64,000 bases of DNA from a virus. The notes beneath the pieces are model-generated. The model saw only the letters and a list, made by a program, of their open reading frames with translations, had not been told where the DNA came from and did no database searches. Position 1 is the stretch's first letter. The number at the start of each line of letters is the position of its first letter. Below, piece after piece: positions 33,653 through 60,824 of this stretch. The stretch spans positions 30,390-94,389 of the IMG/VR virus record IMGVR_UViG_3300017917_002740; one strand, 5' to 3'. The translations under genes and the position numbers were made by a program.

Positions 33653-33653
33653 T

Positions 33654-42782: not shown

Positions 42783-42786
42783 GATA

Positions 42787-42816
42787 TATTTAAGCCATTA
42801 TAATAGCACATAAATA
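42787..42816. promoter_or_regulatory. Divergent late promoter pair
   Basis: CTTAAATA on the minus strand (42787-42794) and CATAAATA on the plus strand (42809-42816), each only 4 nt from its start codon (42782 and 42821), without a ribosome site between. Both genes would be transcribed as leaderless or near-leaderless mRNAs. Confidence 0.6.
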
Positions 42817-42820
42817 TTTT

Positions 42821-43489
42821 ATGCTCAACTCTACCAATTATACAGTACCTCAAGACATACTACAACAGGCAGTAAATTCTATTCCTGGTATCGATTCTCG
42901 CTTGTCGTTAAATCAGCCAACTGGTAGATTTTTTAATGACCCGTGGGAACTCAAACCCGAGTTCAAAGGCACAGTTTGGGAAACTATATTGAATATTTTG
43001 GATGAACCAAAAGGCGAAGCTCGATTAATTAAATTAACACCAGGTGAATCATATCCCAGCCATGCTGACATTGACGATCGCTGGCACCTTGCTCTAACAG
43101 GAAATAACTCTTATCTAATAGATTTAGAAAACTGTGTGATGCACCGAACAGACAAAAATGGAATATGGTACAGCATGAATGCAGGTCACAGGCACACAGC
43201 AGCAAATTTTGGCAGTGAAGACAGAATTCAGTTGGTAGTTCGAAAATTATTGCCGATGCCAAATATTAAAAATCCGGTTGAAGTTGCTATCACTTTAAAA
43301 ACAGTAGTTGAAGATCGTAGATTTATATTCGACGATGTAATTAGTCCGTGGTTAAATTATGCTTACAAAAAAGGAATAGTGGATAATTTTAAAGGTGAAG
43401 ATTTAATTGCTACTATGACAGTAGAATCAGATCATGTTGATGAATTAACAGAATTAACCAAAGAATATTTTGTGTTGGCCATAAAATGA
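42821..43489 (+). CDS. 2OG/Fe(II) oxygenase-like, aspartyl-hydroxylase type
   Basis: 222 residues. ARLIKLTPGESYPSHADID gives H81-x-D83, followed by VMHRTDKNGIWYSMNAGHRH (H123/H125) and R135 (SEDRIQLVV), matching the aspartyl/asparaginyl beta-hydroxylase fold (HxD...H...R). The substrate is unknown. Operon head; the next gene starts in its last codon. Confidence 0.72.
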   Translation: MLNSTNYTVPQDILQQAVNSIPGIDSRLSLNQPTGRFFNDPWELKPEFKGTVWETILNILDEPKGEARLIKLTPGESYPSHADIDDRWHLALTGNNSYLIDLENCVMHRTDKNGIWYSMNAGHRHTAANFGSEDRIQLVVRKLLPMPNIKNPVEVAITLKTVVEDRRFIFDDVISPWLNYAYKKGIVDNFKGEDLIATMTVESDHVDELTELTKEYFVLAIK

Positions 43490-44184
43490 ATATAGATAAT
43501 TGGACACCTTTTTATAAAATCAATCCAGATGATGGGCAGCTTATAGAAACAAATTTGATTTATACGCCATTGATAAGCCCAGACGGTAAAATATTCTGTA
43601 TGAATTTTGACCATCAGCATTCTTATCAAAACGAACAATTAGCACATTGGTTACCTCATAGGCCTTACTATACCAAAGAAATGGTCAACTTCTTTTTTAA
43701 TAGAGAACTAAAATATCTTACGGTATTTGCCAACAGATCTTGGGCACCTAAGGTATTAGAAATAGACATAGAAAAACAACAGATCTTTTTTGAATGGTCT
43801 GGAGAAACCTGTAATCAAATAGTTTACACAGACAAAAAGATTGAAGATTATTGTCCTGATTGGAAAGCACAGATGTTGTCCATACTAAAAGACATAGTTG
43901 TCAGCGGCTACTACAAAACCAGTTTGTATCCTCACTGTTATTTTATTAGCAATGGTCAATTAAAAACTTTTGACTTTTACGGTTGTGTAGAAATCAAAGA
44001 TCCCTATGTGTCTATAAATGATATTAAAGGTATGATCGGAGAAACATCTGGTCCTCGATTTGAAGCAGCAGTCAAGGACAATATGTTAAATGTTGAAATA
44101 CTGTTTAAAGATGCTCTAAAAACTTGGGTTAAATGGCCCGACGATGTACTGCCTATGTTTTACGAGGAGTTATTTGGTGATTAA
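43486..44184 (+). CDS. Kinase-fold-like protein, paralogue of 51222-51926
   Basis: 232 residues with a two-part sequence like small kinases: an N-terminal beta-rich part (APKVLEIDIEKQQIFFEWSG) and a C-terminal YKTSLYPHCYFISNGQLK then FDFYGC that lines up with the HxN/DFG region of APH/Bud32/Rio-type kinases, but without a clear catalytic Asp in the first position. It resembles the gene at 51222-51926 over most of its length. Either a degenerate kinase or a binding protein. No family recognised. Confidence 0.5.
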   Translation: MNIDNWTPFYKINPDDGQLIETNLIYTPLISPDGKIFCMNFDHQHSYQNEQLAHWLPHRPYYTKEMVNFFFNRELKYLTVFANRSWAPKVLEIDIEKQQIFFEWSGETCNQIVYTDKKIEDYCPDWKAQMLSILKDIVVSGYYKTSLYPHCYFISNGQLKTFDFYGCVEIKDPYVSINDIKGMIGETSGPRFEAAVKDNMLNVEILFKDALKTWVKWPDDVLPMFYEELFGD

Positions 44185-44761
44185 ACTCGTAGGCAATTTT
44201 AATAATTTAATCAACTGGAATGACGTTGTCTCGCACCTCGAAGACACAGAACAGCCTATTGTAAAAAGAGCAGCACCTGAGTATTGGTTAGAACCTACTA
44301 TATTAGAACCAGGATATAACAGTTCTGGTACTGAAAGAAACTTAGATAAAGAAATGTGCGATAGTTGGGTAGCTGCCAATTACTTTTTTGATTCGGCAGT
44401 ATGGTTAGTATATCGAGTCGGTGTACATTATCCGCAGTCCTTAGAAGATTTGATCTGTCAGCAATTAAACATCTCAGTAAATTGGTCTGTGATTAATAGA
44501 GTTGATCCTGGACGCACAGTTCCACTGCACATAGATCCTGACGATAATCCAGAATTTGATGGAGATAAAAAAGTAAGATTCATCTGTCAGATATCTCTTC
44601 CTGCTCGTGGACAGGTTTTAACAGTTGGTGATCAAGCATTAACGAATTTGCAGGTAGGGGATATGTATCAATGGGATAATTATTTAGAACAACATTCTGC
44701 TGCCAATGCTGGATTAACTCCGGTATATTATTTTTCTATTGAGGGATTCAGTCGTGATTAA
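44177..44761 (+). CDS. 2OG/Fe(II) oxygenase-like
   Basis: 194 residues from GTG 44177, where GAGGAG lies 7 nt upstream and decides the start against a more distal in-frame ATG (44144). RTVPLHIDPDDNPEF gives H118-x-D120; H173 (EQHSAANAG) is the third ligand; VGDMYQWDNYLEQ is a typical late strand. The usual oxoglutarate Arg after the last His is not obvious. Pairs with the next gene. Confidence 0.65.
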   Translation: MIKLVGNFNNLINWNDVVSHLEDTEQPIVKRAAPEYWLEPTILEPGYNSSGTERNLDKEMCDSWVAANYFFDSAVWLVYRVGVHYPQSLEDLICQQLNISVNWSVINRVDPGRTVPLHIDPDDNPEFDGDKKVRFICQISLPARGQVLTVGDQALTNLQVGDMYQWDNYLEQHSAANAGLTPVYYFSIEGFSRD

Positions 44762-45263
44762 TTGGGATGAAATTATCGGTAGTCTTTTTAATGGTGTGCC
44801 TATTACTGCTGATAAAAGTAAATGGAATCTTTCAACCCCCGGCTACTTAGAAATTTACAAATCATGGGAAGATGCTAAGTTTAATATGAGCGCAATTAAA
44901 TGGATTAATTATTATCCCAGAACACACTATCCAGAAGAAGTAGATACTAAGATGTGTGAGCAGTTGGGTATCAATAAATTACGAGCTTGGATTAGTAGAA
45001 TAGATCCTGGTTATTGCGCACCTTGGCATTGGGACGTTGACGACAATGAAGAACAATATCTTAGTCTTGGAGAAATACAAAGATACAGTTGTTTTATCAG
45101 CAAACCTGCCAATGGGCAAATGTTTCAGTTAGGCAATCAGTATTATACTGCGCAGCCTCAAGGTACTATTGTTAAATGGGACGATTACAAACAATGGCAT
45201 GCTGGAGTTAATGCTGGGACTACTTCTAAGTTTATGTATCACATTATGGGGTATAGGCACTGA
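44754..45263 (+). CDS. 2OG/Fe(II) oxygenase-like
   Basis: 169 residues from GTG 44754, with GAGGGA before it. CAPWHWDVDDNEEQY gives H92-x-D94 and YKQWHAGVNAG the third His (H149). It resembles the previous product (ISRIDPGYCAPWHWD vs INRVDPGRTVPLHID) over the whole length, so the two arose by duplication. Its end overlaps the convergent 45244-45765 by 20 nt. Confidence 0.65.
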   Translation: MINWDEIIGSLFNGVPITADKSKWNLSTPGYLEIYKSWEDAKFNMSAIKWINYYPRTHYPEEVDTKMCEQLGINKLRAWISRIDPGYCAPWHWDVDDNEEQYLSLGEIQRYSCFISKPANGQMFQLGNQYYTAQPQGTIVKWDDYKQWHAGVNAGTTSKFMYHIMGYRH

Positions 45264-45765
45264 TCTGCAGCGTTAATCTTGTAGCCATACTAATATTAAC
45301 TACTCCGTGATAGCACATGGGGTCATCCCATAAAAACAAATCACCAGCTTTGTAATCAGCTAACAGATAATTATCATAGACAAAAACGTGTCCAGGTTGA
45401 TAATCTAACAAAGGCATAGTCCATCTTTGACATTTTGAAACTTGTGTGACGTGAGGATCAAAATGCATGGGCTGCATCTGACCAGGTTTTAATTTAATGA
45501 TCCACCAATGGTATTCACCTTCGATATCTATAGGCATTTTAATATCTAAATGTTTTAAACAATCTGTATTCTTAGTATACTGGCAGAAGTGATGATTCCC
45601 AGCAGGATAACCAGCTTGTTCTATAGCTGTACGTGCTGCATCAAATTCAGGAGTACCTCTCCATTTTTCAGGTTGATACACAGGTGTAACATCACCATCG
45701 TTGTTAAGTAGGATGTCTAATAGTTCTGGAGTAATCCAGTCTCGATAATTGCCTATGAGTTTCAT
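45244..45765 (-). CDS. 2OG/Fe(II) oxygenase-like
   Basis: 173 residues: MQPMHFDPHVTQ (H101-x-D103), DYKAGDLFLWDDPMCYHGVVN (H153) and R163, the HxD...H...R pattern of prolyl-hydroxylase/AspH-type folds. The start KLIGNYRDWIT parallels IKLVGNFNNLINW of the 44177 gene. Shares the last five-gene minus operon with two radical SAM genes. Confidence 0.7.
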   Translation of the reverse strand: MKLIGNYRDWITPELLDILLNNDGDVTPVYQPEKWRGTPEFDAARTAIEQAGYPAGNHHFCQYTKNTDCLKHLDIKMPIDIEGEYHWWIIKLKPGQMQPMHFDPHVTQVSKCQRWTMPLLDYQPGHVFVYDNYLLADYKAGDLFLWDDPMCYHGVVNISMATRLTLQISAYTP

Positions 45766-46568
45766 TAATACGACTCTATATGATCTATGCCTAACTTTTT
45801 ACGGAATTCGTCTGTGAACTTTCCGTCAATGCGCAGACTATAGCTGGGCTCCATAATTCGTTCACCACCATGCCAGTCTTGATCATTCCACCATGCGGCA
45901 CGAGTGTTTAGATATATTTTGTTTTTGTGTTCAGGGTCCCAGATGTAAAATGCTTTCTTTGTATTGGGTCTTATGTGTATGAATTCATTACGATGAGGAA
46001 ATGTAACATTCATACCGTTCTTGGCATCGAGGTCTCTATGTTCGAAAGGAATGCCATCTGCTTCACAATGGAAAAATATAACACGTCCGATATGCTCGAA
46101 TAAATTTTGATCAATAAGCTGTTCGACCCATTTAACTACATTAGGAAAATAAGCAGCTTCTGGAGTTAACTTACGAGGAGCAGTACGATCGTCCCAAGAA
46201 CCTTCTTCCCATAGGAAATAATAAATGTACGGGTCATATGCGCCCATGGCCATTTTTAAGAATCTTGTGAATTTGTTTCTCTGTTGATAATTGCCAAAGT
46301 CTCGGTACAACGGCATTCCAGCAACCTTGATAGGATCATCATCTGGCAATGCTAAGAATTCATCTTTGGCCTTGTATATAGGTTTCCAGTGAGGTTGATA
46401 ACTCATTCGCTCAAAGGTAAAGCCCGGGGCCATCCATGTACCTTCTTTGGCATATTCTCTGGCTTCAGCAAAACCTCTAATGATTTCAGGCTGTAGTCGA
46501 TCAAACTCAGCCATGTCTAAGTAAGACTCTAAATCAAAATAAGGTTGATGATTAATACCTTTGATCAT
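45765..46568 (-). CDS. 2OG/Fe(II) oxygenase-like, aspartyl-hydroxylase type
   Basis: 267 residues. RVIFFHCEADGIPFEHRDLD gives H177-x-D179; DWHGGERI contains H233; R246 follows (SYSLRIDGK). Overlaps the radical-SAM gene by one base at each end (46568 and 45765), so both genes must be translated in sequence. The catalytic arrangement is that of the AspH/cupin 2OG family. Substrate unknown. Confidence 0.68.
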   Translation of the reverse strand: MIKGINHQPYFDLESYLDMAEFDRLQPEIIRGFAEAREYAKEGTWMAPGFTFERMSYQPHWKPIYKAKDEFLALPDDDPIKVAGMPLYRDFGNYQQRNKFTRFLKMAMGAYDPYIYYFLWEEGSWDDRTAPRKLTPEAAYFPNVVKWVEQLIDQNLFEHIGRVIFFHCEADGIPFEHRDLDAKNGMNVTFPHRNEFIHIRPNTKKAFYIWDPEHKNKIYLNTRAAWWNDQDWHGGERIMEPSYSLRIDGKFTDEFRKKLGIDHIESY

Positions 46569-47455
46569 TACACATCTCTGGCTTTTTGTTTGGCCAATGG
46601 CCAGATCACTTTTTCAATCCTGTTCTCTGGGCATAGGTTACACTGCGGTATAATTTCTAACAATGTATCTGTAAAGTGTTTGATAAATTCGTCAGAGTCA
46701 TAGGGACTGCAGGCACGATATTGATTAAGCAGATCAACTGCTCGCTGTTCAACATTAAACTGATTGACAAAGTCGTCTTTGAAAGCAACCAAGTGACACT
46801 TGTATAAATGACCTTTTACAAAATAATGACACTTGTTGGCAGAACAATTTTCATGAGCAATCGCAGGATCGCTGTCGTGTAAGTAGATAACACCGTCACG
46901 AATTTCTTTTCTACTGCTGGTGTGTAGTTTCCAACGCTGTCTAATATCAGCTACTAACTTTCCATCCACATAGTATTGTTTACCTGGATCTTCAAATTTA
47001 CGACCCAAGGTTGTTTTGGTTATTTCTGTGGTTGTATAAGTGTACTTGGATAATAATTCTTCTACATGAAACTTAGTTTCGTCGTAGTGTGAGGGATCGT
47101 GTACAGATATGTCTAACCATATGCCAAGATCGATGATGTCCTGAGTTAGTTCTTTGTTTGTACCAAAATATGTGCCGTTGGTGACCACAGAAAAGTCTGT
47201 GATCTCTGGCCAAAGTTTTCTAAGATTGTAGGCCCAGTTCCATAGGTCTGGATTAGCATAGGGTTCGCCACCCAGAATATTCATCATGTCTACGCTAAGG
47301 ATTTTTGACCAATCCTCGTAGTAGGCTCTGTAGTCCTCAAACTTATAGTGTCCTTTGAAAACCTTGTCATTGTAGGTTATGCAGTTGTCACAGGTGAGAT
47401 TACACACATTGGTAATGTAGTGATCGCCTTCTAATATTCTATATTTTTTAGTCAT
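46568..47455 (-). CDS. Radical SAM protein, paralogue of 50289-51176
   Basis: 295 residues with CNLTCDNC (C18, C22, C25), NILGGEPYANPDLWNW, VTNGTYFG, and a C-terminal half with CHYFVKGHLYKCHL, ENCSANKC and QCNLCPENR, which could bind a second cluster. It matches the gene at 50289-51176 throughout (same ITYND..FKGH.KF, HDSDPAIAH). Overlaps the next gene upstream by 4 nt. Confidence 0.88.
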   Translation of the reverse strand: MTKKYRILEGDHYITNVCNLTCDNCITYNDKVFKGHYKFEDYRAYYEDWSKILSVDMMNILGGEPYANPDLWNWAYNLRKLWPEITDFSVVTNGTYFGTNKELTQDIIDLGIWLDISVHDPSHYDETKFHVEELLSKYTYTTTEITKTTLGRKFEDPGKQYYVDGKLVADIRQRWKLHTSSRKEIRDGVIYLHDSDPAIAHENCSANKCHYFVKGHLYKCHLVAFKDDFVNQFNVEQRAVDLLNQYRACSPYDSDEFIKHFTDTLLEIIPQCNLCPENRIEKVIWPLAKQKARDV

Positions 47456-48489
47456 CGTCTTTGATATTTAACCGGTACTTCATCCTGTAATTTCATGCCC
47501 TTGTTTATCACAGCATCACGTAGCATTACCTGATGCATCAAGTTGGTAGGCGGAACTCCTGGAACAAAACTGCCCCATGGACCGCATACCAGTTCGTCAA
47601 GGTCCACGCTTTTGGCATCAGCCCATTGTATGATCCTGTGGGTGGCGCCATTGATCTTAACCATGTAGTGATAGATATTGTCGTCAGCTAAGATCTTTTC
47701 CCATGTATAATTTAATTTGGTAACCTGTCTATACACTTCATAGACCAATTCACTCAAGAACAATCTGGGTTCGTCTGGACAACGTCCTATGTCTGCGCCG
47801 CCCCTGATCCTAAATTCTTCTACAAAGTCTTTGAATGTCTGTATTTCTTCAAGTATAAAAGGAATTTGATCTATGCTGGATAATGTGTAATTTATATTCT
47901 TAATTCTTAGGCCAACTTCACGACAATTTTGTATGGCCTGCAGTTGTTTCTTATGTACTGCTTCACCCTGATAGTCAGGATGGTTTAGACCTACGGTGAC
48001 AAATTCGCAACCTGCTGCGATCAGCTGTTTACAAAAATCCATGCTGCTGAGTTTTAGTCCATTGGTCAGCACATTAAGCTCTCTGTTGGTTTTAGTTCTA
48101 ATAGCAGTGATCAATTCACAGAGGTCATTGCGCATGGTCGGCTCAGCACCTGCCAGAGTCACACTATACCCATCATCGGGGAATGAGTTGATCTGATCTA
48201 TGATAGAGTCTATGGACTTGTCTTTCTTTTTGTTATCTGGTTCTTGATAGCAGTGCGGGCAGGTAAGATTGCAGCGATCAGTTACTTCAAGCACATATCC
48301 GCCTGCGTCATAGTGTTCAGGATGATGCTTGAGTGTTTCTTGGAATATTTTTTCACGCTCGATCATATGTTCAGAATAACCATGCTCTGGGCAGGTTTTA
48401 CTGATCCACAACTCTCTGCCTCGTTCAAATCTGTGTGCTGGTATGTGTCTGTAGCAGATCTCGCACAATGACATAGTTTCTTTGATCAT
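47452..48489 (-). CDS. Radical SAM protein with N-terminal zinc motif (Tes/MJ0619-like)
   Basis: 345 residues. An N-terminal Zn module (C9, C12, then C33, H36 in CEICYRHIPAH ... SKTCPEHG) precedes the core CNLTCPHC (C73, C77, C80). This domain order occurs in the archaeal MJ0619 methyltransferase and Tes tetraether synthase families, which act on lipids or pterins at unactivated carbons. LAGAEPTMRND replaces GGEP. It may catalyse C-C bond formation or methylation (inference from family). Operon with a 2OG oxygenase upstream (4-nt overlap). Confidence 0.78.
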   Translation of the reverse strand: MIKETMSLCEICYRHIPAHRFERGRELWISKTCPEHGYSEHMIEREKIFQETLKHHPEHYDAGGYVLEVTDRCNLTCPHCYQEPDNKKKDKSIDSIIDQINSFPDDGYSVTLAGAEPTMRNDLCELITAIRTKTNRELNVLTNGLKLSSMDFCKQLIAAGCEFVTVGLNHPDYQGEAVHKKQLQAIQNCREVGLRIKNINYTLSSIDQIPFILEEIQTFKDFVEEFRIRGGADIGRCPDEPRLFLSELVYEVYRQVTKLNYTWEKILADDNIYHYMVKINGATHRIIQWADAKSVDLDELVCGPWGSFVPGVPPTNLMHQVMLRDAVINKGMKLQDEVPVKYQRR

Positions 48490-49127
48490 TGCGGTACTCC
48501 GTTGATCATAAAAGGCAAACTAATACGGCTGCCGTAGTCGTTGGGCCAGCCTTCGGGTGCCTGTGCCACCACCATGTGATTCATCCATCCTGGCCACAAA
48601 ATTAAATCACCTTCTTCTACGTCTACGGTGATCTCTAATGAACCTTTGGGAAAGCTGCTGCGTATATGTGGTTCGTACAACAGAGCATGAGGATGTTCAA
48701 ACACCATTTGTTGTACTCCTTGACATTCAAGATATAGGCCACCGCCGATTAAAAATTCTGAATGATTGTGCATAAAGCCAATACCAGAAATATAAGTCTG
48801 GCACCACATGTCTGTGATCTCAGGTTTGAGAGTTTTATCTACTCTAAGTGTATCAAAATAATTGAGAACATGTGGCATGATTTGCTCTATGGCCGATTGC
48901 ATCTCAGGTCTAAGATGCAGTAGTTTTCCATTTGGATCCATGGTATCTTTGGTCGGAAATGTGCTGTAATTTGGACTACCTCCGGTGCTGGTACCGATCC
49001 ATGGTGGAATAAGTGCATCTGGTTGTGACCATAACTCATTGAGATAGGGAAGAATGCCGTTTAGTATTTCTCGGCTGTTGGCTATTTTGGTACGGATAAT
49101 TGGGCTGGGGAACCAGTATTCAGTCAT
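48486..49127 (-). CDS. 2OG-Fe(II) oxygenase-like (family-5-like)
   Basis: 213 residues starting TEYWFPSPIIRTKI, with SGIGFMHNHSEFLIGGGLYLE (H120/H122 and E124 as likely metal-site residues), VEEGDLILWPGWMNHMV (H184) and R201. This is the pattern of the 2OG-FeII_Oxy_5 group. Heads the five-gene minus operon; CATAAATA lies 5 nt before the start. The substrate is unknown. Confidence 0.75.
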   Translation of the reverse strand: MTEYWFPSPIIRTKIANSREILNGILPYLNELWSQPDALIPPWIGTSTGGSPNYSTFPTKDTMDPNGKLLHLRPEMQSAIEQIMPHVLNYFDTLRVDKTLKPEITDMWCQTYISGIGFMHNHSEFLIGGGLYLECQGVQQMVFEHPHALLYEPHIRSSFPKGSLEITVDVEEGDLILWPGWMNHMVVAQAPEGWPNDYGSRISLPFMINGVPQ

Positions 49128-49132
49128 GAAAA

Positions 49133-49162
49133 TATTTATGTGCGCATTTTATCCAATAAATA
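49133..49162. promoter_or_regulatory. Divergent late promoter pair
   Basis: CATAAATA on the minus strand (49133-49140), 5 nt from ATG 49127, and AATAAATA on the plus strand (49155-49162), 6 nt from ATG 49169. No ribosome site intervenes. The same arrangement occurs at 42787-42816 and 51181-51212. Confidence 0.6.
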
Positions 49163-49168
49163 TTTTCA

Positions 49169-50305
49169 ATGGAACTCAACTATCACCTGGACAATTTACC
49201 AAATCATCAGATCATCAAAACTGAAGGTTATTGGAACTATACCGTCAATAAAAAATTATTAGATCCTTTATGCGGTAATACTTCGTTTATCTTTGGTTAT
49301 AACAATAAATCGATCTTAGACTCGATGTACAAACTGCAATCCCAGATAGGCTTCTTGCGTGGTATGAGCAACGAGACCTGTAACGAAAATCAAGAATTGC
49401 TGACGGAGATCTGTCAACGTGGCGGATTTGACAGCGTGGCCTGGGCAGTCAGCGGCAGTGATGCTGTGGAAGCTGCTGTCTATATCAATGACGAATACTG
49501 GCGCAAATTAGAAAAGGATCGTCCTACCATAGTTACATTTACACCAGGTTATCACGGCACAACTTATCTGGCAAAACTTTTTAGAGAAGAATATCCCACA
49601 GGCGAACGTGCCGCGGTCATAGAACGTAGTCTTGATGATGCTGACACATTGTTGACCTTGGAAACTCTGTTAGAACTAAATCCCAAGATTGGAGCAGTAT
49701 TGATAGAGTCTGCACCGTGGAATGGCGGTCTTAGATTATGGTCGCAGGCATGGTGGAATGATCTTAGGCTCCTATGCGATCAATACAACATCAATTTAAT
49801 AGTAGATGATGTATTAGGAGGAGTGGGCAAGTTAGGACATTTCTTTAGTCACCAAAGATACGGAATACAGCCAGACATCGTGGCCATGGGCAAAGCATTG
49901 ACCAATGGTTATAGTCCTCTGGGCTGTGCCTGCACTACCAAGCGGATTTCCAATGTGATCAAAGATTCTTGGAATTTCGGTCATACCTGGTCGCCCAATA
50001 TGGCTGGCATTGGTGCTGCATTAGAAGTCTGTAAGATCTATGACACCATAGACTTTAATGCCATAGAAATGCGGTTAAAAAAGTTAGGTGACGAATTAAA
50101 AGCAGCAGGTCTGATCAAGGATTACACAGCAGCAGGACTTTTGTTTTACATCACGTTAGATAAAACTTATTCGCCAGATGCTCTATACACAGCAGGCATC
50201 AACGGCACGCTCAACGATAATAATGGCATATTCATCTGTGCGCCTGCTATTGCTGACAGCGAGTATTTTTCTGAATTATCTAATAGACTTAGATCTTTTC
50301 TTTAA
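49169..50305 (+). CDS. Class III aminotransferase (PLP)
   Basis: 378 residues of the BioA/GSA-type class III family: AVSGSDAVEAAV (98-region), TFTPGYHGTTY, LIVDDVLGGVGKLG (D213 at the pyridine nitrogen) and MGKALTNGYSPLGC with the PLP lysine K242. It transfers an amino group from or to a carbonyl substrate. All key residues are kept, so it should be active. Single-gene plus unit that ends convergently with 50289, overlapping 17 nt. Confidence 0.9.
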   Translation: MELNYHLDNLPNHQIIKTEGYWNYTVNKKLLDPLCGNTSFIFGYNNKSILDSMYKLQSQIGFLRGMSNETCNENQELLTEICQRGGFDSVAWAVSGSDAVEAAVYINDEYWRKLEKDRPTIVTFTPGYHGTTYLAKLFREEYPTGERAAVIERSLDDADTLLTLETLLELNPKIGAVLIESAPWNGGLRLWSQAWWNDLRLLCDQYNINLIVDDVLGGVGKLGHFFSHQRYGIQPDIVAMGKALTNGYSPLGCACTTKRISNVIKDSWNFGHTWSPNMAGIGAALEVCKIYDTIDFNAIEMRLKKLGDELKAAGLIKDYTAAGLLFYITLDKTYSPDALYTAGINGTLNDNNGIFICAPAIADSEYFSELSNRLRSFL

Positions 50306-51176
50306 CCGGCTTTAACGGATATAGTTTCTTATTGATCCTATACTCTGGACAGAGCTTACACTGCGGAACTGGTTCTTCTAATGCTCCTATGAAACTTGAT
50401 ATTTTTTCATTGGAGTCAAATGGACTACAGAAATCAGATTCATTTAGTAATTGTTTAGATGCAGGATCAATATTAAATTGATTGGTTAGATCCTCGTGTA
50501 TAGAAGTTAGAAAACACTTGTATAGGTCGCCCCTGACTACGTAATGACATAATCTTGCCTTGCAGTTTTTGTGAGCTATTTCTGGATCGCTGTCATGCAT
50601 GTGAATAATACCGTTGTGTATCATCTTAGTTGAGTGTGTGCCAAACTCATAGACCTGACTGAGCTTAACAGCCAGTCTACCATCTACATAATAATTTTCT
50701 TCTTGATAGGTAGCATTGGTCATGTTAGTGCCGATAGTGATATCTTTGCTGTAATCGTACACAGATAAAATTTCTTCAACTTGACTTTTGGCACGATCAT
50801 AGTGAGCAGGATCGTGCAATGAAATATCTAACCATAAACGTTGATCAATGATAGCTCGAGAAAGATCCGTTTCGTGTAGATATGTGCCATTGGTACAGAC
50901 ACAAAAATCTTCAAGGTCTGGCCAACATTGTCTCAGTCCTATAACCCAATTCAACAAGTCTGGATTAGCATAGGGCTCACCGCCCAAAATACAGATCTTA
51001 GGCGGCTGTAAAATTTCTCCCCAACGCTGACATTTATCTTGGTAGTCTGCGAATTTAAAATGACCTTTGAATCTTAGATCATTGTATGTGATACAATTTT
51101 CACAGGTAAGGTTACACACATTGGTAATGTAAAAGCACAGATAGGCTTCTGTGATCATTGTGAATTTTGGATCCAT
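50289..51176 (-). CDS. Radical SAM protein, paralogue of 46568-47455
   Basis: 295 residues from ATG 51176; the open frame goes on to 51443 but that part runs through the divergent gene and across the promoter. CNLTCENC (C21, C25, C28), ILGGEPYANPDLLNW, CTNGTYLH, HDSDPEIAHKNC, LCHYVVRGDLYKCFL, QCKLCPEYR. Same length and order of motifs as its partner. Preceded by AATAAATA at 4 nt. Confidence 0.87.
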   Translation of the reverse strand: MDPKFTMITEAYLCFYITNVCNLTCENCITYNDLRFKGHFKFADYQDKCQRWGEILQPPKICILGGEPYANPDLLNWVIGLRQCWPDLEDFCVCTNGTYLHETDLSRAIIDQRLWLDISLHDPAHYDRAKSQVEEILSVYDYSKDITIGTNMTNATYQEENYYVDGRLAVKLSQVYEFGTHSTKMIHNGIIHMHDSDPEIAHKNCKARLCHYVVRGDLYKCFLTSIHEDLTNQFNIDPASKQLLNESDFCSPFDSNEKISSFIGALEEPVPQCKLCPEYRINKKLYPLKPVKEKI

Positions 51177-51180
51177 GCAA

Positions 51181-51212
51181 TATTTATTGGCAGTAATAAC
51201 AGCATATAAATA
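51181..51212. promoter_or_regulatory. Divergent late promoter pair
   Basis: AATAAATA on the minus strand (51181-51188), 4 nt from ATG 51176, and a perfect T4-type TATAAATA on the plus strand (51205-51212), 9 nt from ATG 51222. Supports ATG choice for both genes. Confidence 0.65.
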
Positions 51213-51221
51213 TTGCACACC

Positions 51222-51926
51222 ATGAAATTCCATTATTATTACAATCAAATTCCCGGAGGCGAGCCCTGGAGAAACAATTTGATTTACACCAGTTTGATCA
51301 GCGAGGACAAAAAAACTTTTGTCCAATGGTATCACAACGACAGCGAATATCACAAAGGCATGAATGAAGTTGTTGATCCAGCATTGATGAATGAAAAGTG
51401 GAGCAGAGAACTCTGCTTTCTTAATTACATGAATCGATGGCACCCAGAATCTGTGCCAGAAATTTTAGATATTGATTTATTGGAAAAAAAGATTTATTTA
51501 AAAATTGACGGTGTGGATCTATGGCAACGCAGTTTAGACAACCACAACTGCGCTTTTGATCAGATAGTGCCTGATTGGCAGGAACAGATGTTGGCCATAT
51601 TTAAAAATCATATAGATCTAAATCTATGGAAATACAGCCTTCACCCCAGCAGTTATTTCATTGTAGATGGTCAGTTAAAAAGCATAAACTACTTTTTCAC
51701 TTACAGCTCAGATGACGGTCCTATCACGGTCAGAGATCATCTCAGCCATATCAGCGAAGGTCGTAGAGCAGAAATGAAACCCAAGACAGAAGCCATGGGC
51801 ATAGACTGGGACACACCTCAAAGTCTGTATACCATGCAGATGTTGGCCTTTGAAAGTTTTAGAAGTAACTATCCCACGGACTTTATAGATCGAGCCAAGA
51901 GTCTTTATGACCACCTCAAAGATTAA
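51222..51926 (+). CDS. Kinase-fold-like protein, paralogue of 43486-44184
   Basis: 234 residues from ATG 51222, chosen because of the TATAAATA motif; an upstream TTG (51213) is inside the leader. KFHYYYNQIPGGEPWRNNL, PEILDIDLLEKKIYLKIDG, YSLHPSSYFIVDGQLKS follow the same order as the 43486 gene. The DFG-like position is INY rather than FDF, so phosphotransfer activity is doubtful. Sits next to a radical SAM gene in both loci (divergent here). Confidence 0.5.
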   Translation: MKFHYYYNQIPGGEPWRNNLIYTSLISEDKKTFVQWYHNDSEYHKGMNEVVDPALMNEKWSRELCFLNYMNRWHPESVPEILDIDLLEKKIYLKIDGVDLWQRSLDNHNCAFDQIVPDWQEQMLAIFKNHIDLNLWKYSLHPSSYFIVDGQLKSINYFFTYSSDDGPITVRDHLSHISEGRRAEMKPKTEAMGIDWDTPQSLYTMQMLAFESFRSNYPTDFIDRAKSLYDHLKD

Positions 51927-53919
51927 ACACTTTTATCTGTTTACCAAAGACAGCTATGGTACAAAAACCGTGTCTGTGCCATTGCTTTGGTGTAGCATGA
52001 AAACCTACTACGAAGAACAAAGTGCAAAAAGCGCAGAGTGGCAGTGGCACGATCCTTTTATAACCAGACGTTCTGATGCGGAGATATTTGCAGAGTTAGA
52101 ACGTGATCCTCCTGATGTTGCTGGCTTCAGTGTCTATGTGTGGAATGAGGTATACATGGATCAGCTGGCAGCAACGGTAAAACAGCTTTATCCTAACTGC
52201 TTGATCATCTACGGAGGCCCACAGCAGAATACCAAACACAATGAAAATTATTTCGAAGAAAAGCCTTGGGTAGATATTGTGTTCCCCAGCGATGTCTACG
52301 GAGAGATAGTGATCAAAGAAGTGTTGGACAATTACCCCGTACAAGACATACGGTCTATACCCACTGCCTACTATCAAAATGCCGCAGGACTAACAGCAGA
52401 AAGCGGCATACCCATAGACAAGCGTGGGTTTCAATGGCCTCACAATATTTTTAAATCTCAAGAGCAGTATATTTTACCCACACTACAATCTGCTAAAAAC
52501 CAAGATTACGACATAGTGGCTCTCTACGACACAGCACGAGGCTGTCCTTATCGCTGCATCTATTGCGAGTGGGGAGGCGGTACACATACCAAGGTGGTCA
52601 AGAAACCATTCGGCACGGTGCTTGACGAATTGACATGGTTGGCTGCAGTAGGAGAAATCACAAGAATTGAAATCACTGATGCCAACTTTGGTATTATGAG
52701 CATAGACGTTGAAATTGCTCGACACTTAGCTGAACTAAAAAACACCTACGGATATCCCAAAAACGTTGATATTACCAATGCTAAAAACAACATTGATCGA
52801 GTATTGGACATCATGGAAATATTTTTAGAAGCTGACATGATCAGTCAGTATATCATTCCTATACAGACACTTGATGAAACCACAAAGAAAAATATCCAAC
52901 GCACAGACATTCCATTTGAAGAACAGATCACAGGACTTGCTCGTTTAAGAAAAAACAAAAACGGTCAAAAGATGATTACATTCTTTGAGTCTATAATGGG
53001 GTTGCCAGGTGATAGTTATCAGGTCAATTGTCAGCAGATTGACACACTTTATGAACACGGACAGCCCTTGGGCAGTATGTTAAATCACACTTGGATGCTG
53101 TTACCTGAAACTCCAGCATACACGCCAGAGCTAAGACAGAAATTTAAAATCAAAACGGTCAAGAAGACCTTGGATTTTTTTACTAAAATAAAACCCGGAC
53201 GAGCAGTAACAGGTCCTATTCCAGACAACACCATGGCAGCATGGACCAACAGCTCTGTAGAAATCGTTGTGGGCACCTATAGTTATTCTACAGAAGAATG
53301 GGTCAAGATGCTGAGGTTAAACAATTTGGTCATTGCTGGAGAACGCATAGGTATCAATGATTATATTCTCAAGTACATGGTCCGTGAACATGGATTGACA
53401 CCTTCACAGGTTTTAACTGACATCATAGACTATGCCTACATCCAAGGATTTAAAGATGCTGATGTAAATGAATTTTTTAAAATGGAGCATCTACACATAA
53501 TACAATGGCTGTATCAAGACAATTTGGATTCTGGTATAGACATAGGAGAGGATTTTCCATTCCTGATCCCCTATTATGCATTTTTGCTATTAATGATCTT
53601 AGGCAATGGATCAGTGATCACTGAATTAACCGACATGCTGGCCGAGAAATACCATGATGAAAAAATCCAAGATTTGGGCAGATACATTTCAAAAAGCCTA
53701 TTAGGCACTGAATATCAAGGCACATGTTCTTTCATTACGGCATATGATTGGTTGAATTATTTTGCCAATGATAGTAAACTTATAAAGGGCACATATCAAT
53801 ATCAGACCGTAGACCCTGCACACGATTGCAGAGATTTACAGGAATATTATTGTTGGATGCTGGATCGTCACAACGAAAATCAAAGTCTTGTGGCCCAAGT
53901 GAGATTAAATGACATTTAA
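51907..53919 (+). CDS. B12-binding radical SAM protein
   Basis: 670 residues. The N-terminal region has the cobalamin-binding-type pattern PPDVAGFSVYVWNE, LIIYGGPQQNTKHN and PWVDIVFPSDVYGE (about 69-132), then the radical-SAM motif CPYRCIYC (C213, C217, C220) in a CEWGGGTHTK context, and a long C-terminal helical part. Class B rSAMs do C-methylation, ring contraction or phosphorus-C chemistry; which one is unknown. It begins 20 nt inside the kinase-like gene and ends 11 nt past the start of the acetyltransferase. Confidence 0.86.
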   Translation: MTTSKIKHFYLFTKDSYGTKTVSVPLLWCSMKTYYEEQSAKSAEWQWHDPFITRRSDAEIFAELERDPPDVAGFSVYVWNEVYMDQLAATVKQLYPNCLIIYGGPQQNTKHNENYFEEKPWVDIVFPSDVYGEIVIKEVLDNYPVQDIRSIPTAYYQNAAGLTAESGIPIDKRGFQWPHNIFKSQEQYILPTLQSAKNQDYDIVALYDTARGCPYRCIYCEWGGGTHTKVVKKPFGTVLDELTWLAAVGEITRIEITDANFGIMSIDVEIARHLAELKNTYGYPKNVDITNAKNNIDRVLDIMEIFLEADMISQYIIPIQTLDETTKKNIQRTDIPFEEQITGLARLRKNKNGQKMITFFESIMGLPGDSYQVNCQQIDTLYEHGQPLGSMLNHTWMLLPETPAYTPELRQKFKIKTVKKTLDFFTKIKPGRAVTGPIPDNTMAAWTNSSVEIVVGTYSYSTEEWVKMLRLNNLVIAGERIGINDYILKYMVREHGLTPSQVLTDIIDYAYIQGFKDADVNEFFKMEHLHIIQWLYQDNLDSGIDIGEDFPFLIPYYAFLLLMILGNGSVITELTDMLAEKYHDEKIQDLGRYISKSLLGTEYQGTCSFITAYDWLNYFANDSKLIKGTYQYQTVDPAHDCRDLQEYYCWMLDRHNENQSLVAQVRLNDI

Positions 53920-54481
53920 GATTGTACCGTGGTCCGAGGAACTTGACAGCACACTGACTGCTTTTTACGCAGAAGCGGATCGCCGCGGATTTGCAAATAA
54001 TGCCAGTCGACGTATGTTGGTTGACAGCATTGCACGTGAACGTGAGTGGGCTGTTTGGATTCTTTATTATAATGACACAGCCGTGGGTTCAGTGGCTGCA
54101 CATAGTTTTCCAGAAATGGGAGAACGCTGTTATCGTATTGCAGCTCGTACCTGTGTGTTCACAGACCTGCTGCCAGGAGCATATGGATCTGCGCTTAGAA
54201 CAAAAAGCGTGATCACTGAACATCAAAACCCCACAGCACAATTTTTAATTCCTGCCTGTCTAAGATGGACTCCAGCAAACAGCAGATTGTTCATCACATC
54301 TAATCAAAGCACCGTGGGAACACAGCGTAGGGTGCATAATATTTTTGGACCTTTGTTAGAACGACAAGGCACCATGCAGCGTATACAAGACTTAGAATAT
54401 CGAGGAACCACACAGACGGTGTGGCAGTTTTTCCCTCACGTATTTTATGAACAGATGAACAAGTATCCCAGATGGCAATGA
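53909..54481 (+). CDS. GNAT-fold acyltransferase-like protein
   Basis: 190 residues with a GNAT-like alpha/beta order: AFYAEADRRGFANN, AVWILYYNDTAVGSVAAHSF and CYRIAARTCVFTDLLPGAYG. The central VGSVAAHSF segment and following helix fit the acetyl-CoA-binding region, although the classic R/Q-x-x-G-x-G/A is not strict. It lies between the two B12-radical SAM genes and overlaps both. I recall similar proteins in marine phage genomes. Confidence 0.6.
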   Translation: MTFKIVPWSEELDSTLTAFYAEADRRGFANNASRRMLVDSIAREREWAVWILYYNDTAVGSVAAHSFPEMGERCYRIAARTCVFTDLLPGAYGSALRTKSVITEHQNPTAQFLIPACLRWTPANSRLFITSNQSTVGTQRRVHNIFGPLLERQGTMQRIQDLEYRGTTQTVWQFFPHVFYEQMNKYPRWQ

Positions 54482-56538
54482 AAAAAGTCTACCTACTATA
54501 CAGAGACACTGCGGAAGAGTCATTTCTTTCTCTGCCTTTGCTGTGGTGTTCAAGCAAGACCTATTATGAAGAAAACAGCTCAAAAGCCAACGAATGGTCG
54601 TGGGGATATCCTTACTTTGGCAAAACAGAAACTGCTGAAGAAATTTTAGCAACGCTGCGAGCAGATCCTCCTGATGTGGTAGGATTCAGCATCTATGTAT
54701 GGAACGAACAATTTTTTGATAGTGTCGCAGAGCAGGTCAAAAAAGAGTTTCCCAACTGCTGGATAGTCTACGGCGGTTTCCAACCCAGTGTCAAACACAA
54801 TCCAGATTTCTTTAGACAAAAGCCTTGGGTAGATGTTGTGGTGCCCGGCAATGTCTATGGTGAGCCTGTGATACAAGAATTATTAGACATTTATCCTAAT
54901 AAAAATTTCAGCGAAGTCATACATGTCTACTATCCAGATGCTGACGGTAATAGAATGATCAGCGACAAAACTTTTGAGAAAAAAGAATTCCGTTGGCCCA
55001 ACAATATCTTTAAGAGCCAAGAACCTTATCTGTTAGAACGAGTTGAAAGAGATAGAGGTAGGCTCAGCATCACTGCGTTTTATCAAACCAGCAGAGGCTG
55101 CCCTTATCAATGTATCTATTGTGATTGGGGTGGTGGCACCAATACCAAGACCATCAAAAAGCCTTGGGAAATAGTCAAAGACGAAATGCTATGGTTAGCA
55201 TCCGTGGCCAAAGTAGACCGTATAGAATTAACTGATGCTAACTTTGGTATCAATGCCATTGATCTTGAAACTGCCAGATACTTTGTGGAACTTAAAAAGA
55301 CCTATGGTTATCCCAAGATCTTAGACTACGAACCTGCTAAGAATCATACCAAGCGTGTGGTGGAGATCGCAGAAACATTGGCCAATGTAGACGCATTGAC
55401 CTTTCACCGTGTGAGCTTACAGAGTTTAGATCCCGTCGTACAAAAAAATGTCATAAGAATCAATGCTCCGTTAGAAGAACAGATCAGCGGCATGAAGTAC
55501 ATCGAACGCATCAGCCAAGGTCGTGTGCCTTTGTATATTGAATGTATGTTGGGCCTGCCTGGAGATAGTTATCAGGCTATCTGTAATCAAATTGACACGG
55601 TCTATGGATACGGTGTAGCACCTGGTTGGATACACAACTATGGTTGGATGCTGTTGCCCGAAAGTCCTTCATATAGTCCCGAAGGCAGGGCCAAACATAA
55701 ATTGGTCACGGTAAAGAAATGGATCAATCATAATGCCAAGCTAAAGAAAGGATTTGTCATAGAGGACAATAGTTCTTTGAATTTATTAGATCCGTTTGAA
55801 ACCAAGTATGTTGAAACGGTAGTGGGCACATATAGTTACACGCAAGAAGATTATATGCAGATGTTTAGATTGACTAACTTCTGTATCGCCACTCACATCA
55901 CTGGGGTTAATGATTACCTAATCAGATATATTGCGGATACGCACAATGTCAAACCCAGCGAAATACTCACAGAAATTTTAAATTTCATAGACGGAAAAAA
56001 TTTCGAGGATCAGGAATTGGCCAAATTGTTTGATCTGCAAAAAAGAGTTCTGCGTAATTGGATGTACGATGATCATAGCGGCAGTGGCATTGACCTTGAT
56101 CCCGAGTTTCCTTTGATGTTGGCACACCATGCATTTTTCACGATGTCTATTATGTTGCACATAGATAGTTTTTACAAAGAAATCTGTGATTTGCTAAGTT
56201 CGAAATATCAAGACACGAGAATACAAGATTTGGGAATATATCTAAAAAATTCTATCATTGATTATGAATACCAGCAAGGTAGAACGTTCGTTACTAATTA
56301 TGATTGGTCGAATTATTTTAGTAACCAGCAGACTTTGGAATTAGGCCACTATCAATATCAGTGTAATGATGAGTTTGAATTAGTTGCCAAAGATAAAAGT
56401 CAGCGATTATTAGAATATTATAAATTTGCTGCAGGTAATAATCTTAATCCTGCTGTGAAAATCTCTAAGGATATAAAGTTAATTAGTCCAGTCTTGACTA
56501 TGCCAAGTGGGTTTGACCAACGACTCTATATCAGTTAG
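54472..56538 (+). CDS. B12-binding radical SAM protein, copy 2
   Basis: 688 residues (ATG 54472, or 54478), full-length paralogue of the 51907 product: PPDVVGFSIYVWNE, IVYGGFQPSVKHNP, PWVDVVVPGNVYGE, CPYQCIYC (C210, C214, C217) in a DWGGGTNTK context, ECMLGLPGDSYQ and VVGTYSYTQED. Its last 20 codons overlap the last 20 codons of the convergent 458-residue gene, an unusually long tail-to-tail overlap. Confidence 0.86.
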   Translation: MAMKKVYLLYRDTAEESFLSLPLLWCSSKTYYEENSSKANEWSWGYPYFGKTETAEEILATLRADPPDVVGFSIYVWNEQFFDSVAEQVKKEFPNCWIVYGGFQPSVKHNPDFFRQKPWVDVVVPGNVYGEPVIQELLDIYPNKNFSEVIHVYYPDADGNRMISDKTFEKKEFRWPNNIFKSQEPYLLERVERDRGRLSITAFYQTSRGCPYQCIYCDWGGGTNTKTIKKPWEIVKDEMLWLASVAKVDRIELTDANFGINAIDLETARYFVELKKTYGYPKILDYEPAKNHTKRVVEIAETLANVDALTFHRVSLQSLDPVVQKNVIRINAPLEEQISGMKYIERISQGRVPLYIECMLGLPGDSYQAICNQIDTVYGYGVAPGWIHNYGWMLLPESPSYSPEGRAKHKLVTVKKWINHNAKLKKGFVIEDNSSLNLLDPFETKYVETVVGTYSYTQEDYMQMFRLTNFCIATHITGVNDYLIRYIADTHNVKPSEILTEILNFIDGKNFEDQELAKLFDLQKRVLRNWMYDDHSGSGIDLDPEFPLMLAHHAFFTMSIMLHIDSFYKEICDLLSSKYQDTRIQDLGIYLKNSIIDYEYQQGRTFVTNYDWSNYFSNQQTLELGHYQYQCNDEFELVAKDKSQRLLEYYKFAAGNNLNPAVKISKDIKLISPVLTMPSGFDQRLYIS

Positions 56539-57855
56539 ACCGATGTCCTGAGCTCTAACTGCTTGATTAACTGAAATATCTACAAAGCCGCTGGCAGCTC
56601 GTCTTGTAAAAATAGTTCGAGCATCAGGACATTGCTCCTGTAGTTTTTTAATAAAACTATTTTCGCTGTGTATTCTATTCTTAACACTTCTTACGGTAGC
56701 TGTTCCTATGTAGTTAAAAACATTGGTTAGGTTAACAACTGTATTGGGTATGTTCTCTATCCAAGAAATATCTGTTTCTGTGTTTAACAGATCGCACCAA
56801 TGATATTCAAATTTTACAGTTTGAATAATCTCTTTCCATACAGATCGATCGATATCTGTAAACTCAGAAGATCCACAATAGGGAACATGCTCGCTGATCA
56901 TAGAAAACTTATTTTTATGATATTCCTCGGCAAAATCTTTGTAGTTAGAGCCATCCCAGTTTTCTACGAGATACTTAATGTATTCTAAAGTTAAAAAACT
57001 GTAATCATAAAATTTAACCTTGGTATTAGAATTAAAATCTAACATAGTCAAATAATGTATCCAATTTAATCCGCTGGCAGATACAACCAATTGTTGAACA
57101 GGACCTTGCATGTTAACAGGCACTATAGTTTCGCTGTTGTTTAGATATATGGCTGTACCGCTACAAAAACCTTGACGAGCATACAAAAATCCCACTTGAT
57201 CCTGATAGCTGGAATATTCTGGATAATAATATCTTTTATTATTTCTTAATCCTTCATCAAATACTTTTATGGGTAACTTATTATCTAATGCTAAAGATAT
57301 TAGATTCCATCCGTGTGCTCGATGAGAATATTCAAAGATTGTACTACCAGATTTAATCCATAAAGGAGTGTAATTGTCATGGTAGTTTTCTTGACTTCTT
57401 CTTGGTATAGTTTGTTGATGACTATCAAAAAATGACCGCTGACCAACTGCTGGACAATTTAATTTTTTATAAGTGGCGAGATTAACAACATAGCATTGTT
57501 CGTGCAATTCATAATAAAACTCGTTTCGATCTAATATATGTCCTGCAATAAAAAAATCTTCTTGACATAATTTTTCTACACAGTCAAACCAATCATAGCT
57601 GTTAACAAACTCTAATCCTGTAGACAACACTACAGCATTTTTGGCTTCGGTATTTGCGGCAGCTCGTAGTAGTGTATCTTCATCTGCAGAAACTAATACA
57701 GTGTATCCTAATATAGTAATGTTCTGTACAGTCCAGTCGCTGATATTTTTAACAGCTTCTTGATTTTCTTTACAGGCACTAATTCTATCAACTATACAGA
57801 ATATAATATGATCTTTAAGCTCTGAGGAATTTTCTTTAAATTTAACTACGTTCAT
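56479..57855 (-). CDS. Large protein of unknown type (458 residues)
   Basis: The N-terminal 130 residues look like an alpha/beta nucleotide- or sugar-binding fold (IIFCIVDRISACKENQEAV, ITILGYTVLVSADEDTLLRA, KNAVVLSTGLEF). The middle has FYARQGFCSG-like sequence (VGFLYARQGFCSGTA). The C-terminal third has VKFYDYSFLTLEYIKYLVENW, TVVNLTNVFNYIGTATV, a layout like an adenylyl- or methyl-transfer domain. It may be a glycosyltransferase-plus-methyltransferase-like protein. I do not recognise it. Third gene of the 59637-56479 operon. Confidence 0.55.
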   Translation of the reverse strand: MNVVKFKENSSELKDHIIFCIVDRISACKENQEAVKNISDWTVQNITILGYTVLVSADEDTLLRAAANTEAKNAVVLSTGLEFVNSYDWFDCVEKLCQEDFFIAGHILDRNEFYYELHEQCYVVNLATYKKLNCPAVGQRSFFDSHQQTIPRRSQENYHDNYTPLWIKSGSTIFEYSHRAHGWNLISLALDNKLPIKVFDEGLRNNKRYYYPEYSSYQDQVGFLYARQGFCSGTAIYLNNSETIVPVNMQGPVQQLVVSASGLNWIHYLTMLDFNSNTKVKFYDYSFLTLEYIKYLVENWDGSNYKDFAEEYHKNKFSMISEHVPYCGSSEFTDIDRSVWKEIIQTVKFEYHWCDLLNTETDISWIENIPNTVVNLTNVFNYIGTATVRSVKNRIHSENSFIKKLQEQCPDARTIFTRRAASGFVDISVNQAVRAQDIGLTDIESLVKPTWHSQDWTN

Positions 57856-58570
57856 AACTTCTTACAATAAGTTCAGCAAAGTCCTGTTTTCGATAGCCGT
57901 ATACTCCAAAGCCTATCATATGAATGCGATCTTTAGAACTAAAATTGATCACAGCATGTCTATGACGTATGTTGATCAAAAATGCTCGATTAGGCTTGAA
58001 CGGAACAATGCCGAACCCTTCTAACACCATGTCGCAGTTCTTGGGATGAATCAATGCCACGTTCACAGGACATCCTAACTCCAAGGGATCGTAGTCAATG
58101 GGTTCACCGGGTATGTAACCACGACCGGGTGCATCGCTGTGGGGAGCAATATAGCCGCCAGCTGCCACTCGCATAAATCTAACTCTTTTGTATTTTTCTG
58201 CAGGAAATGATTTCCAGAACTCTGTGGCTGCAGGAACTTCGTTGCTGAGTTCAGTCCACTTGTAGGTTTCGTCAGTTTCTTCTGAGACATACTCGGGCCA
58301 GTTCTGTGTAGCATCAGTTCTTATGCCGTGGATACAACAACTATCCCAACCTGAGCTTTCGCCTTCTCGATGTGGCACATAATATTTTTCTGCAGCAAGA
58401 CATTCATGATAAAGTTCTGGAACATCTATGTCTAATTCTAACCAAGCAAAGTTAGGGTTATTAACGATCCAACGAGCTTTATCTATCGTAGATAAATCTT
58501 TAGGTAGCTCCGGAGGAACATACTTTAAATTTTTATTCGCATTATAAAAATCTAATACTTCTCGATTCAT
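57842..58570 (-). CDS. Aspartyl/asparaginyl beta-hydroxylase-like 2OG oxygenase
   Basis: 242 residues. RVAAGGYIAPHSDAPGRG gives H144-x-D146; FLINIRHRHAVINFSSKDRIHMIG gives H203/H205 and R215, the AspH HxD...H...R set. NVALIHPKNC and FGIVPFKPNRAF are typical strands. It hydroxylates Asp/Asn or a related position in known families; here the substrate is unknown. Overlaps neighbours on both sides. Confidence 0.82.
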   Translation of the reverse strand: MNREVLDFYNANKNLKYVPPELPKDLSTIDKARWIVNNPNFAWLELDIDVPELYHECLAAEKYYVPHREGESSGWDSCCIHGIRTDATQNWPEYVSEETDETYKWTELSNEVPAATEFWKSFPAEKYKRVRFMRVAAGGYIAPHSDAPGRGYIPGEPIDYDPLELGCPVNVALIHPKNCDMVLEGFGIVPFKPNRAFLINIRHRHAVINFSSKDRIHMIGFGVYGYRKQDFAELIVRSYERS

Positions 58571-59637
58571 TGTGGCAACTTAAAATCTTTGATATTTGCT
58601 GTGTTTACAAAGTCTATGATTTCTTCTTCATAGCGTTTTGCATATTCTTCTTTGAGATACGGTTGCCAAAAATCTTTTTGTAGATTGCTGTAGTCGTGCT
58701 GTATACGATAACACAATCTATCTTTGATATCACCTAATCTGCGATGAAGTGTAATTGAATTATCAAACAGACAGAAGTCCCCTTCGTTGGCATACCAATG
58801 ATCATAGATATATTGATCAACAAATAGTCCTCGATTTATTTCGTCGAACACTGCTTGAGATTCTTTTTCAGTCATACCTTTGATGCTGTGTATGGTATTA
58901 ATAGAATAATGTAGGCCAACTATTCCTCCAGGACTGCGCATGACAATAGGTATTTCAACACCGTCAACTGGACACATATTGGCATGCATGACTTCATCTT
59001 GTTCTATTCTTAGACCTGGATTAATTCTGCCTGGTGTAAACTTGTGTATCAAAATCATTTCATCTAATTCGCTGCGAAAGCTGTTAGAAACTGATTCGTA
59101 ATAATCCGGGGTAGTTAAAAATCCTGTTGACGAACCTACTACATTTTTTGCAGCCAACAATGCTACGCCGGGTGTAAATGTTAGTGTACCACTTTCATTT
59201 GAGTGCCATAGCAGTTCACCTTCGGCGAACATTCCTAAAGGATGGCCATTTTCATCACGTTGTCCAGTTACACGCATAATATGTCGTCCTGTGATAGGAT
59301 CTACTTCTTGCATGCGAGCAATATTAGATAATCTAATTTTATCAATTTCTTCAATTTCAGAACTATTCTCCAAGCTGAGTTTTACTACTTGGCTCCAAGT
59401 GTATTGCGGATATTTTTTGAGGATGTTATATCTAATACCATAGCGAGTGTCACCCCATTTCATTAACCACTCGGGTTGATTTTGCCATTTGAGATTACAG
59501 TCTCTAATAATAGTTACAAAATTTTCTAAATGTAATCGACCGATTTCCATCCACTCTTCGTCCGAAAGGTGATCAAAATCAACACCGTCGATGAATATAC
59601 CAAATCGTCCTAAACCTGGTATTTTTGAAATCTTCAT
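58567..59637 (-). CDS. TauD/TfdA-like oxygenase with altered metal motif
   Basis: 356 residues with the TauD/TfdA order: ELLWHSNESGTLTFTPGVALL, NVVGSSTGFLTTPDYYES, LHYSINTIHSIKGM, FCLFDNSITLHRRLG and RLCYRI. H145 and H298 are present, but the acid after His (usual HxD/E) is Asn147 (HSN), followed by E148. R307 or R311 could hold oxoglutarate. Head of a three-gene minus operon; CTTAAATA sits in the stem of a hairpin 25 nt upstream. Confidence 0.78.
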   Translation of the reverse strand: MKISKIPGLGRFGIFIDGVDFDHLSDEEWMEIGRLHLENFVTIIRDCNLKWQNQPEWLMKWGDTRYGIRYNILKKYPQYTWSQVVKLSLENSSEIEEIDKIRLSNIARMQEVDPITGRHIMRVTGQRDENGHPLGMFAEGELLWHSNESGTLTFTPGVALLAAKNVVGSSTGFLTTPDYYESVSNSFRSELDEMILIHKFTPGRINPGLRIEQDEVMHANMCPVDGVEIPIVMRSPGGIVGLHYSINTIHSIKGMTEKESQAVFDEINRGLFVDQYIYDHWYANEGDFCLFDNSITLHRRLGDIKDRLCYRIQHDYSNLQKDFWQPYLKEEYAKRYEEEIIDFVNTANIKDFKLPQ

Positions 59638-60792: not shown

Positions 60793-60824
60793 ATTAATAA
60801 CTCCTGGAAATTTCCTGTCTAATA

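Follow-up and report, generated by a model that had tools for sequence, protein, structure and literature searches.

A 64-kb stretch of viral DNA raises the question of why a phage would carry two closely related radical SAM genes around a small acyltransferase-like gene and what these enzymes might act on. The stretch analyzed here, referred to as the window, comprises 64,000 nt and corresponds to positions 30,390 to 94,389 of the 94,389-bp virus record IMGVR_UViG_3300017917_002740. The DNA polymerase of this record is of the T4 type, with Sinorhizobium phage Phosso as its nearest match (50%), which gives no more than a hint at the host, and the source is an uncultured T4-like phage.

The four-gene run and the family of its radical SAM paralogues

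The two radical SAM genes, here called rA and rB, belong to a run of four plus-strand genes (Table 1). The kinase-like gene k51213 overlaps rA by 20 bases, rA overlaps the middle gene by 11 bases, and the middle gene overlaps rB by 10 bases. The reading frame of k51213 opens with a TTG codon at position 51,213; however, the ATG codon at position 51,222 is the likelier start. A promoter scan yielded fewer sites than were counted in shuffled sequence. An earlier note, made from the letters of the sequence alone, had described full-length paralogues on both sides of the middle gene, all three genes overlapping, and its coordinates and its lengths of 670 and 688 amino acids were exact. The paralogy was borne out as well, as rA and rB share 283 of 633 aligned residues (45%) with a score of 588 bits, far beyond chance.

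Table 1. Positions of the enzyme island, the four-gene run and selected residues, numbered from the first letter of the window
Feature	Position	Strand	Basis or content
Enzyme island	30474..59637		13 radical SAM genes in total; several oxygenases of the 2OG-Fe(II) type
k51213, kinase-like, first gene of the four-gene run	51222..51926	+	PDB profile match, conserved degenerate loop
rA, first putative TokK/CysS-type cobalamin-dependent radical SAM methylase paralogue, 670 aa	51907..53919	+	NCBIfam, PDB, tree
rA W79 (equivalent to TokK W76 and CysS W75, Trp under cobalt)	52141..52143	+	Alignment; PMC12846815, PMC13331322
rA C213-C220 (CPYRCIYC) and W222 (equivalent to TokK W215)	52543..52572	+	Alignment
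Middle gene, predicted GNAT-fold protein lacking the acyl-CoA motif, 190 aa	53909..54481	+	Model; motif in 0 of 32
rB, second putative TokK/CysS-type paralogue, 688 aa	54472..56538	+	NCBIfam, PDB, model, tree
rB W77 (equivalent to TokK W76)	54700..54702	+	Alignment; invariant in 31 viral homologues
rB C210-C217 (CPYQCIYC) and W219 (equivalent to TokK W215)	55099..55128	+	Alignment

Both proteins matched the Pfam Radical_SAM family and carry its CxxxCxxC motif in the form read by the earlier note, CPYxCIYC. The N-terminal likeness to a cobalamin-binding domain, also claimed there, was only partly reflected in Pfam, where the match to B12-binding (PF02310) was partial and its scores of 20.7 and 27.5 bits lay below the gathering cut-off of 32.1; it was upheld by NCBIfam and by sequence and fold matches in the PDB, and the family assignment rests on these rather than on the Pfam domain. 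A weak Pfam score is in fact expected, because class-1 cobalamin-dependent radical SAM enzymes lack a His ligand to cobalamin (PMC13331322). The top NCBIfam model for both proteins was the KedN5 family (NF033712), which comprises radical SAM C-methyltransferases dependent on methylcobalamin, yet the scores of 169.5 and 164.1 bits are far below its curated cut-off of 700 bits, which makes rA and rB a distant subfamily, relatives of this family rather than members under the NCBI rule. In a PDB sequence search (E value of ≤0.001), TokK and CysS were the only matches for each of the two proteins, and a profile built from 31 viral sequences, including rA and rB, matched TokK with an E value of 8.5e-139 and CysS with an E value of 1.3e-94. 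With high confidence, we place rA and rB among the cobalamin-dependent radical SAM enzymes of the TokK/CysS/KedN5 group, on the strength of these matches and of the fold model described below. TokK-type methylases are known from bacterial antibiotic pathways. A plasmid of Streptantibioticus cattleyicolor also matched the family (27% identity over 94%), in a stretch devoid of annotation that presumably encodes ThnK.

The enzyme island and the kinase-like/GNAT-like junction

The run is part of an enzyme island that also contains two aminotransferase-like genes, a gene for a PP-loop protein and SGNH genes. About half of the island genes are found again, with their order preserved, in dozens of viral contigs. 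Island genes adjoin or overlap, and the largest gap is 41 bases, so that no separate precursor gene fits between them, although a precursor could be encoded elsewhere or inside a larger protein. This tight spacing argues against a RiPP pathway, in which the radical SAM enzymes would mature a small peptide. Inspection by eye revealed a second pair of radical SAM paralogues at window positions 46568-47455 and 50289-51443, sharing the motif ITNVCNLTC[DE]NCITYND, with an aminotransferase gene (49169-50305) between them. Directly past the island, at 59701-60840, lies a gene for a repetitive protein that looks tail-fibre-like, and similar ORFs follow the island in several relatives.

Next, we considered the neighbors of rA and rB. 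A profile of k51213 matched TTK kinase in the PDB with an E value of 3e-6. The family counts at least 361 viral relatives and has a conserved degenerate catalytic loop, in which conserved HPSSYF and INYFF take the place of HRD and DFG, and k51213 may thus encode a pseudokinase. A kinase-like paralogue, k43486, is located at window positions 43486-44184. The middle gene had no match in Pfam, PHROGs or NCBIfam. Its model, built from 32 sequences (pLDDT 92.9), produced 199 PDB matches at an E value of ≤1e-3, those listed being mostly GNAT proteins, with TM scores of about 0.5-0.6. The acyl-CoA motif [QR]xxGx[GA] is present in none of the 32 family members, which renders acetyl transfer by this protein doubtful. 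Of the original description as an acyltransferase or GNAT-like gene, the predicted GNAT fold therefore stands and the motif does not.

The unit proposed in the earlier note, two cobalamin-dependent radical SAM genes plus the GNAT-like gene, was not borne out as conserved. Elsewhere, members of the rA/rB family close to a GNAT-like gene were confined to L176, L269 and the near-identical contigs L151/L153, which also appear as L082, and the pair was found in none of them; L142 and L146 display the same local gene order without rA or rB. The usual partner of the GNAT-like gene is instead the kinase-like gene. Among 43 viral loci of the middle-gene family, a k51213 homologue was present in 39, in 36 of them directly upstream. 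Conversely, in 52 of 80 loci retrieved with k51213, a GNAT-like gene lay downstream in the same orientation, directly so in 44, and we therefore rejected the GNAT-like gene as a dedicated partner of the rA/rB pair. The remaining eight loci carry one or two genes between the kinase-like and GNAT-like genes, and in six of the eight a radical SAM gene, from one of several families, is among them. A further such insertion was seen in L157 from the GNAT-like locus set; some contigs belong to both sets, and not all junction cases are independent. In our phage, rA lies within the junction and rB comes right after the GNAT-like gene, where a relative of rB is also found in L269. In L176 and L185, a relative of rA and rB lies directly beside a k43486 homologue.

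These data are most simply read as a kinase-like/GNAT-fold pair that stays fixed while radical SAM genes are slotted into it, with a junction that would accept different ones in different phages. On this basis, we propose that rA and rB are exchangeable tailoring enzymes, namely C-methylases, which would act on the product of the conserved phage enzyme island. As a whole, this explanation is moderately favored. A pathway common to the pair and the island may be suggested by their co-location, which is no proof of it, and most relatives of rA and rB lie in preQ0 operons.

Origin of the pair and relatives in preQ0 operons

In the tree, rA and rB are sisters (support of 100/99), and hence they arose by duplication. 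They fall within a clade of 25 rows (100/99), nearly all other members of which are encoded next to a phosphoribosyltransferase, QueE or QueD gene, nearly always between the phosphoribosyltransferase and QueE/QueD, and often with FolE nearby. FolE, QueD, QueE and QueC make preQ0 (PMC6884629), and the phage carries QueD-like and QueC-like genes of its own. These two observations had pointed to a deazaguanine substrate, whereby rA and rB would add methyl groups to a phage preQ0-pathway intermediate and thereby help to produce a modified DNA base instead of serving the island. A control set of 80 phosphoribosyltransferase loci led us to demote this explanation. All 80 loci contained preQ0 genes, while a member of the B12-dependent family was present in only 12; the phosphoribosyltransferase was directly followed by QueE in 22, and the junction between the two holds other genes, too. 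Shared descent in an accessory position accounts for the preQ0 placement as well as shared function does. Moreover, no phosphoribosyltransferase, QueE or FolE gene was found in the record, and rA and rB themselves lie outside any FolE/QueD/QueE/phosphoribosyltransferase operon, in contrast to their nearest relatives in viral contigs. We therefore regard action on a preQ0 intermediate as unlikely, though it is the strongest of the alternatives. The description of phage preQ0/7-deazaguanine pathways in PMC6884629 does not mention a B12 enzyme.

Loci L281-L356 (e.g., L284 and L286) share a conserved phage phosphoribosyltransferase-QueE operon, often with FolE upstream and with a slot for accessory genes between phosphoribosyltransferase and QueE. 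Downstream of it there are often genes that by eye resemble SAM synthetase and exonuclease genes. In the record of our phage (L124), positions 1674-3215, at its start and outside the window, encode a 513-aa protein that by eye looks like the DNA transglycosylase DpdA. It matched neither a protein family nor a PDB entry; a protein of Pseudomonas phage PA5oct shares 43% identity with it and, like its homologues in other phages, is annotated as hypothetical.

Predicted fold, chemistry and spread among viruses

The proposal that rA and rB tailor the island product presumes that they are working cobalamin-dependent methylases. An AlphaFold2 model of rB, based on the 31-sequence alignment (pLDDT 85.3, pTM 0.85), gave a full-length match to TokK, whose structure was determined with hydroxocobalamin, with TM scores of 0.76/0.79. 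The match to CysS was weaker (0.68/0.74), and OxsB, TsrM and AprD4 matched less well. As in TokK, the model comprises an N-terminal Rossmann-type cobalamin-binding domain, a TIM-barrel radical SAM core and a C-terminal domain; the 45% identity to rB suggests the same three-domain layout for rA. An N-terminal domain lacking a cobalamin-sized pocket in structure models had been named in the earlier note as grounds to abandon its reading; in the rB model the cobalamin domain is present and complete.

The residues around the cofactor can be compared with those of characterized enzymes. A Trp lies under the cobalt in TokK (W76) and CysS (W75), whereas this lower-face position is Arg in TsrM and Asn, acting via waters, in OxsB (PMC13331322, PMC12846815). 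In addition, TokK W215, located two residues past the last cluster Cys, bridges SAM and cobalamin, the equivalent residue of TsrM being Glu (PMC9692996). According to our alignment, both residues are kept in rA (W79 and W222) and rB (W77 and W219), and both, like the GG and GE positions, show no variation among the 31 viral sequences. The Trp at both positions favors radical C-methylation over chemistry of the TsrM or OxsB type, and cobalamin dependence is well supported by these two residues and the full-length match of the model to TokK. The phage enzymes differ from their models in other respects. Identity to TokK (PDB 7kdx/7kdy) is about 22% in the structural alignment, despite the shared fold, both Trp residues and CxxxCxxC, and rA and rB form a phage-borne pair within an island, for which the carbapenem substrate of TokK is not expected. 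Identity to CysS, the iterative methylase of cystobactamid (PDB 9n1b-d), is about 18% in the structural alignment; the fold, the Trp75 equivalent and the radical SAM core are common to both, but W271, which gates the substrate in CysS (PMC12846815), corresponds to Asp in rA and rB in the PDB alignments. This difference suggests another substrate for the phage enzymes.

Methylation by rA and rB is thus probable, judging from residues and model. The two enzymes, derived from duplication of one phage gene, would use one SAM molecule to transfer a methyl group to cob(I)alamin and cleave a second one to a 5'-deoxyadenosyl radical, which would take a hydrogen from an unactivated substrate carbon; the methyl group would then move from methylcobalamin to that carbon. 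Alternatively, one or both enzymes could bind cobalamin but run a different radical reaction, such as ring contraction or formation of a thioether or ring, as in OxsB, ThnL and BchE. Paralogues of this class acting in one pathway can indeed differ in reaction, and non-methylating examples have been listed (PMC13331322), and the Asp at the gating position would fit such a divergence. Nevertheless, we consider it improbable, since the nearest relatives in sequence and fold are iterative C-methylases and the cobalt-facing residue is Trp, as in TokK and CysS, not Asn as in OxsB. Finally, we consider it very improbable that rA and rB dispense with cobalamin, in the manner proposed for AprD4, and retain their N-terminal domain as a relic. 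The partial Pfam match and the presence of AprD4 among the weaker structural matches would fit this reading; yet the model shows a complete domain, its key residues do not vary, and a low Pfam score is expected of this class.

If C-methylation by rA and rB needs cobalamin, the host or the surroundings must supply it. No cobalamin riboswitch was found in the 64-kb window, and neither CobS nor a TonB-type receptor was found in the 94-kb record; the cofactor would therefore probably come from the infected host, although such an absence is weak evidence because the record may be a fragment. With the same reservation, the reliance on host or environmental B12 foreseen in the earlier note is plausible. 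It might in turn restrict the host range or the timing of the pathway, as that note went on to suggest.

Members of the family are widespread among viral contigs. A scan with a degenerate motif returned at least 120 loci, and all those listed encode relatives of rA and rB; these 120 contain 121 relative ORFs, 95 of them longer than 550 aa. A narrower motif recovered 37 loci nearer to rA and rB, 29 of which were new, while exact peptide patterns for rB alone or for the pair matched no viral contig and one distant bacterial sequence. These searches may omit records very near the window. Several of 48 records searched whole possess two or more full-length members (e.g., G042, G043, G046, G059 and G073). 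Annotated phage records gave weak partial matches and none stronger, and a library of predicted viral structures contains full-length relatives named in general terms only.

The rA/rB pair is accordingly a phage lineage of a known kind of enzyme in an unexplained island, and in the open-access literature we found no paper on a phage TokK-type lineage or on a junction with swappable radical SAM genes. A comparable situation is the host recognition cluster of pelagimyophages, where T4-like phages of aquatic habitats acquired radical SAM cassettes within a variable region; no function was given for them and B12 was not mentioned (PMC7029224). Tentatively, a phage-specific lineage of B12-dependent enzymes might use host cobalamin to make an undescribed C-methylated base or small molecule, with the kinase-like/GNAT-fold pair serving hundreds of aquatic phages as a platform on which radical SAM enzymes can be exchanged. 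Such a deep lineage, present at 120 or more viral loci, would link phage chemistry to the supply of vitamin B12 and provide new enzymes for C-methylation, and the junction would give a handle on the unexplained cassettes of aquatic T4-like phages.

Radical SAM proteins of about 500-550 aa from related islands matched PhpK/HpnJ-type B12 enzymes; we did not count them as such, as their Pfam B12-binding match is weak or absent. Viral loci with the B12-dependent family also contain other enzyme genes, including a flavin-dependent gene of the tryptophan halogenase type (L020 2569-4155, PF04820, 3.6e-93), an acyl-carrier-type protein (L018 6436-6717, PF00550) and, by eye, an amidinotransferase-like gene (L020 4565-5560), which is seen in 18 of the loci listed.
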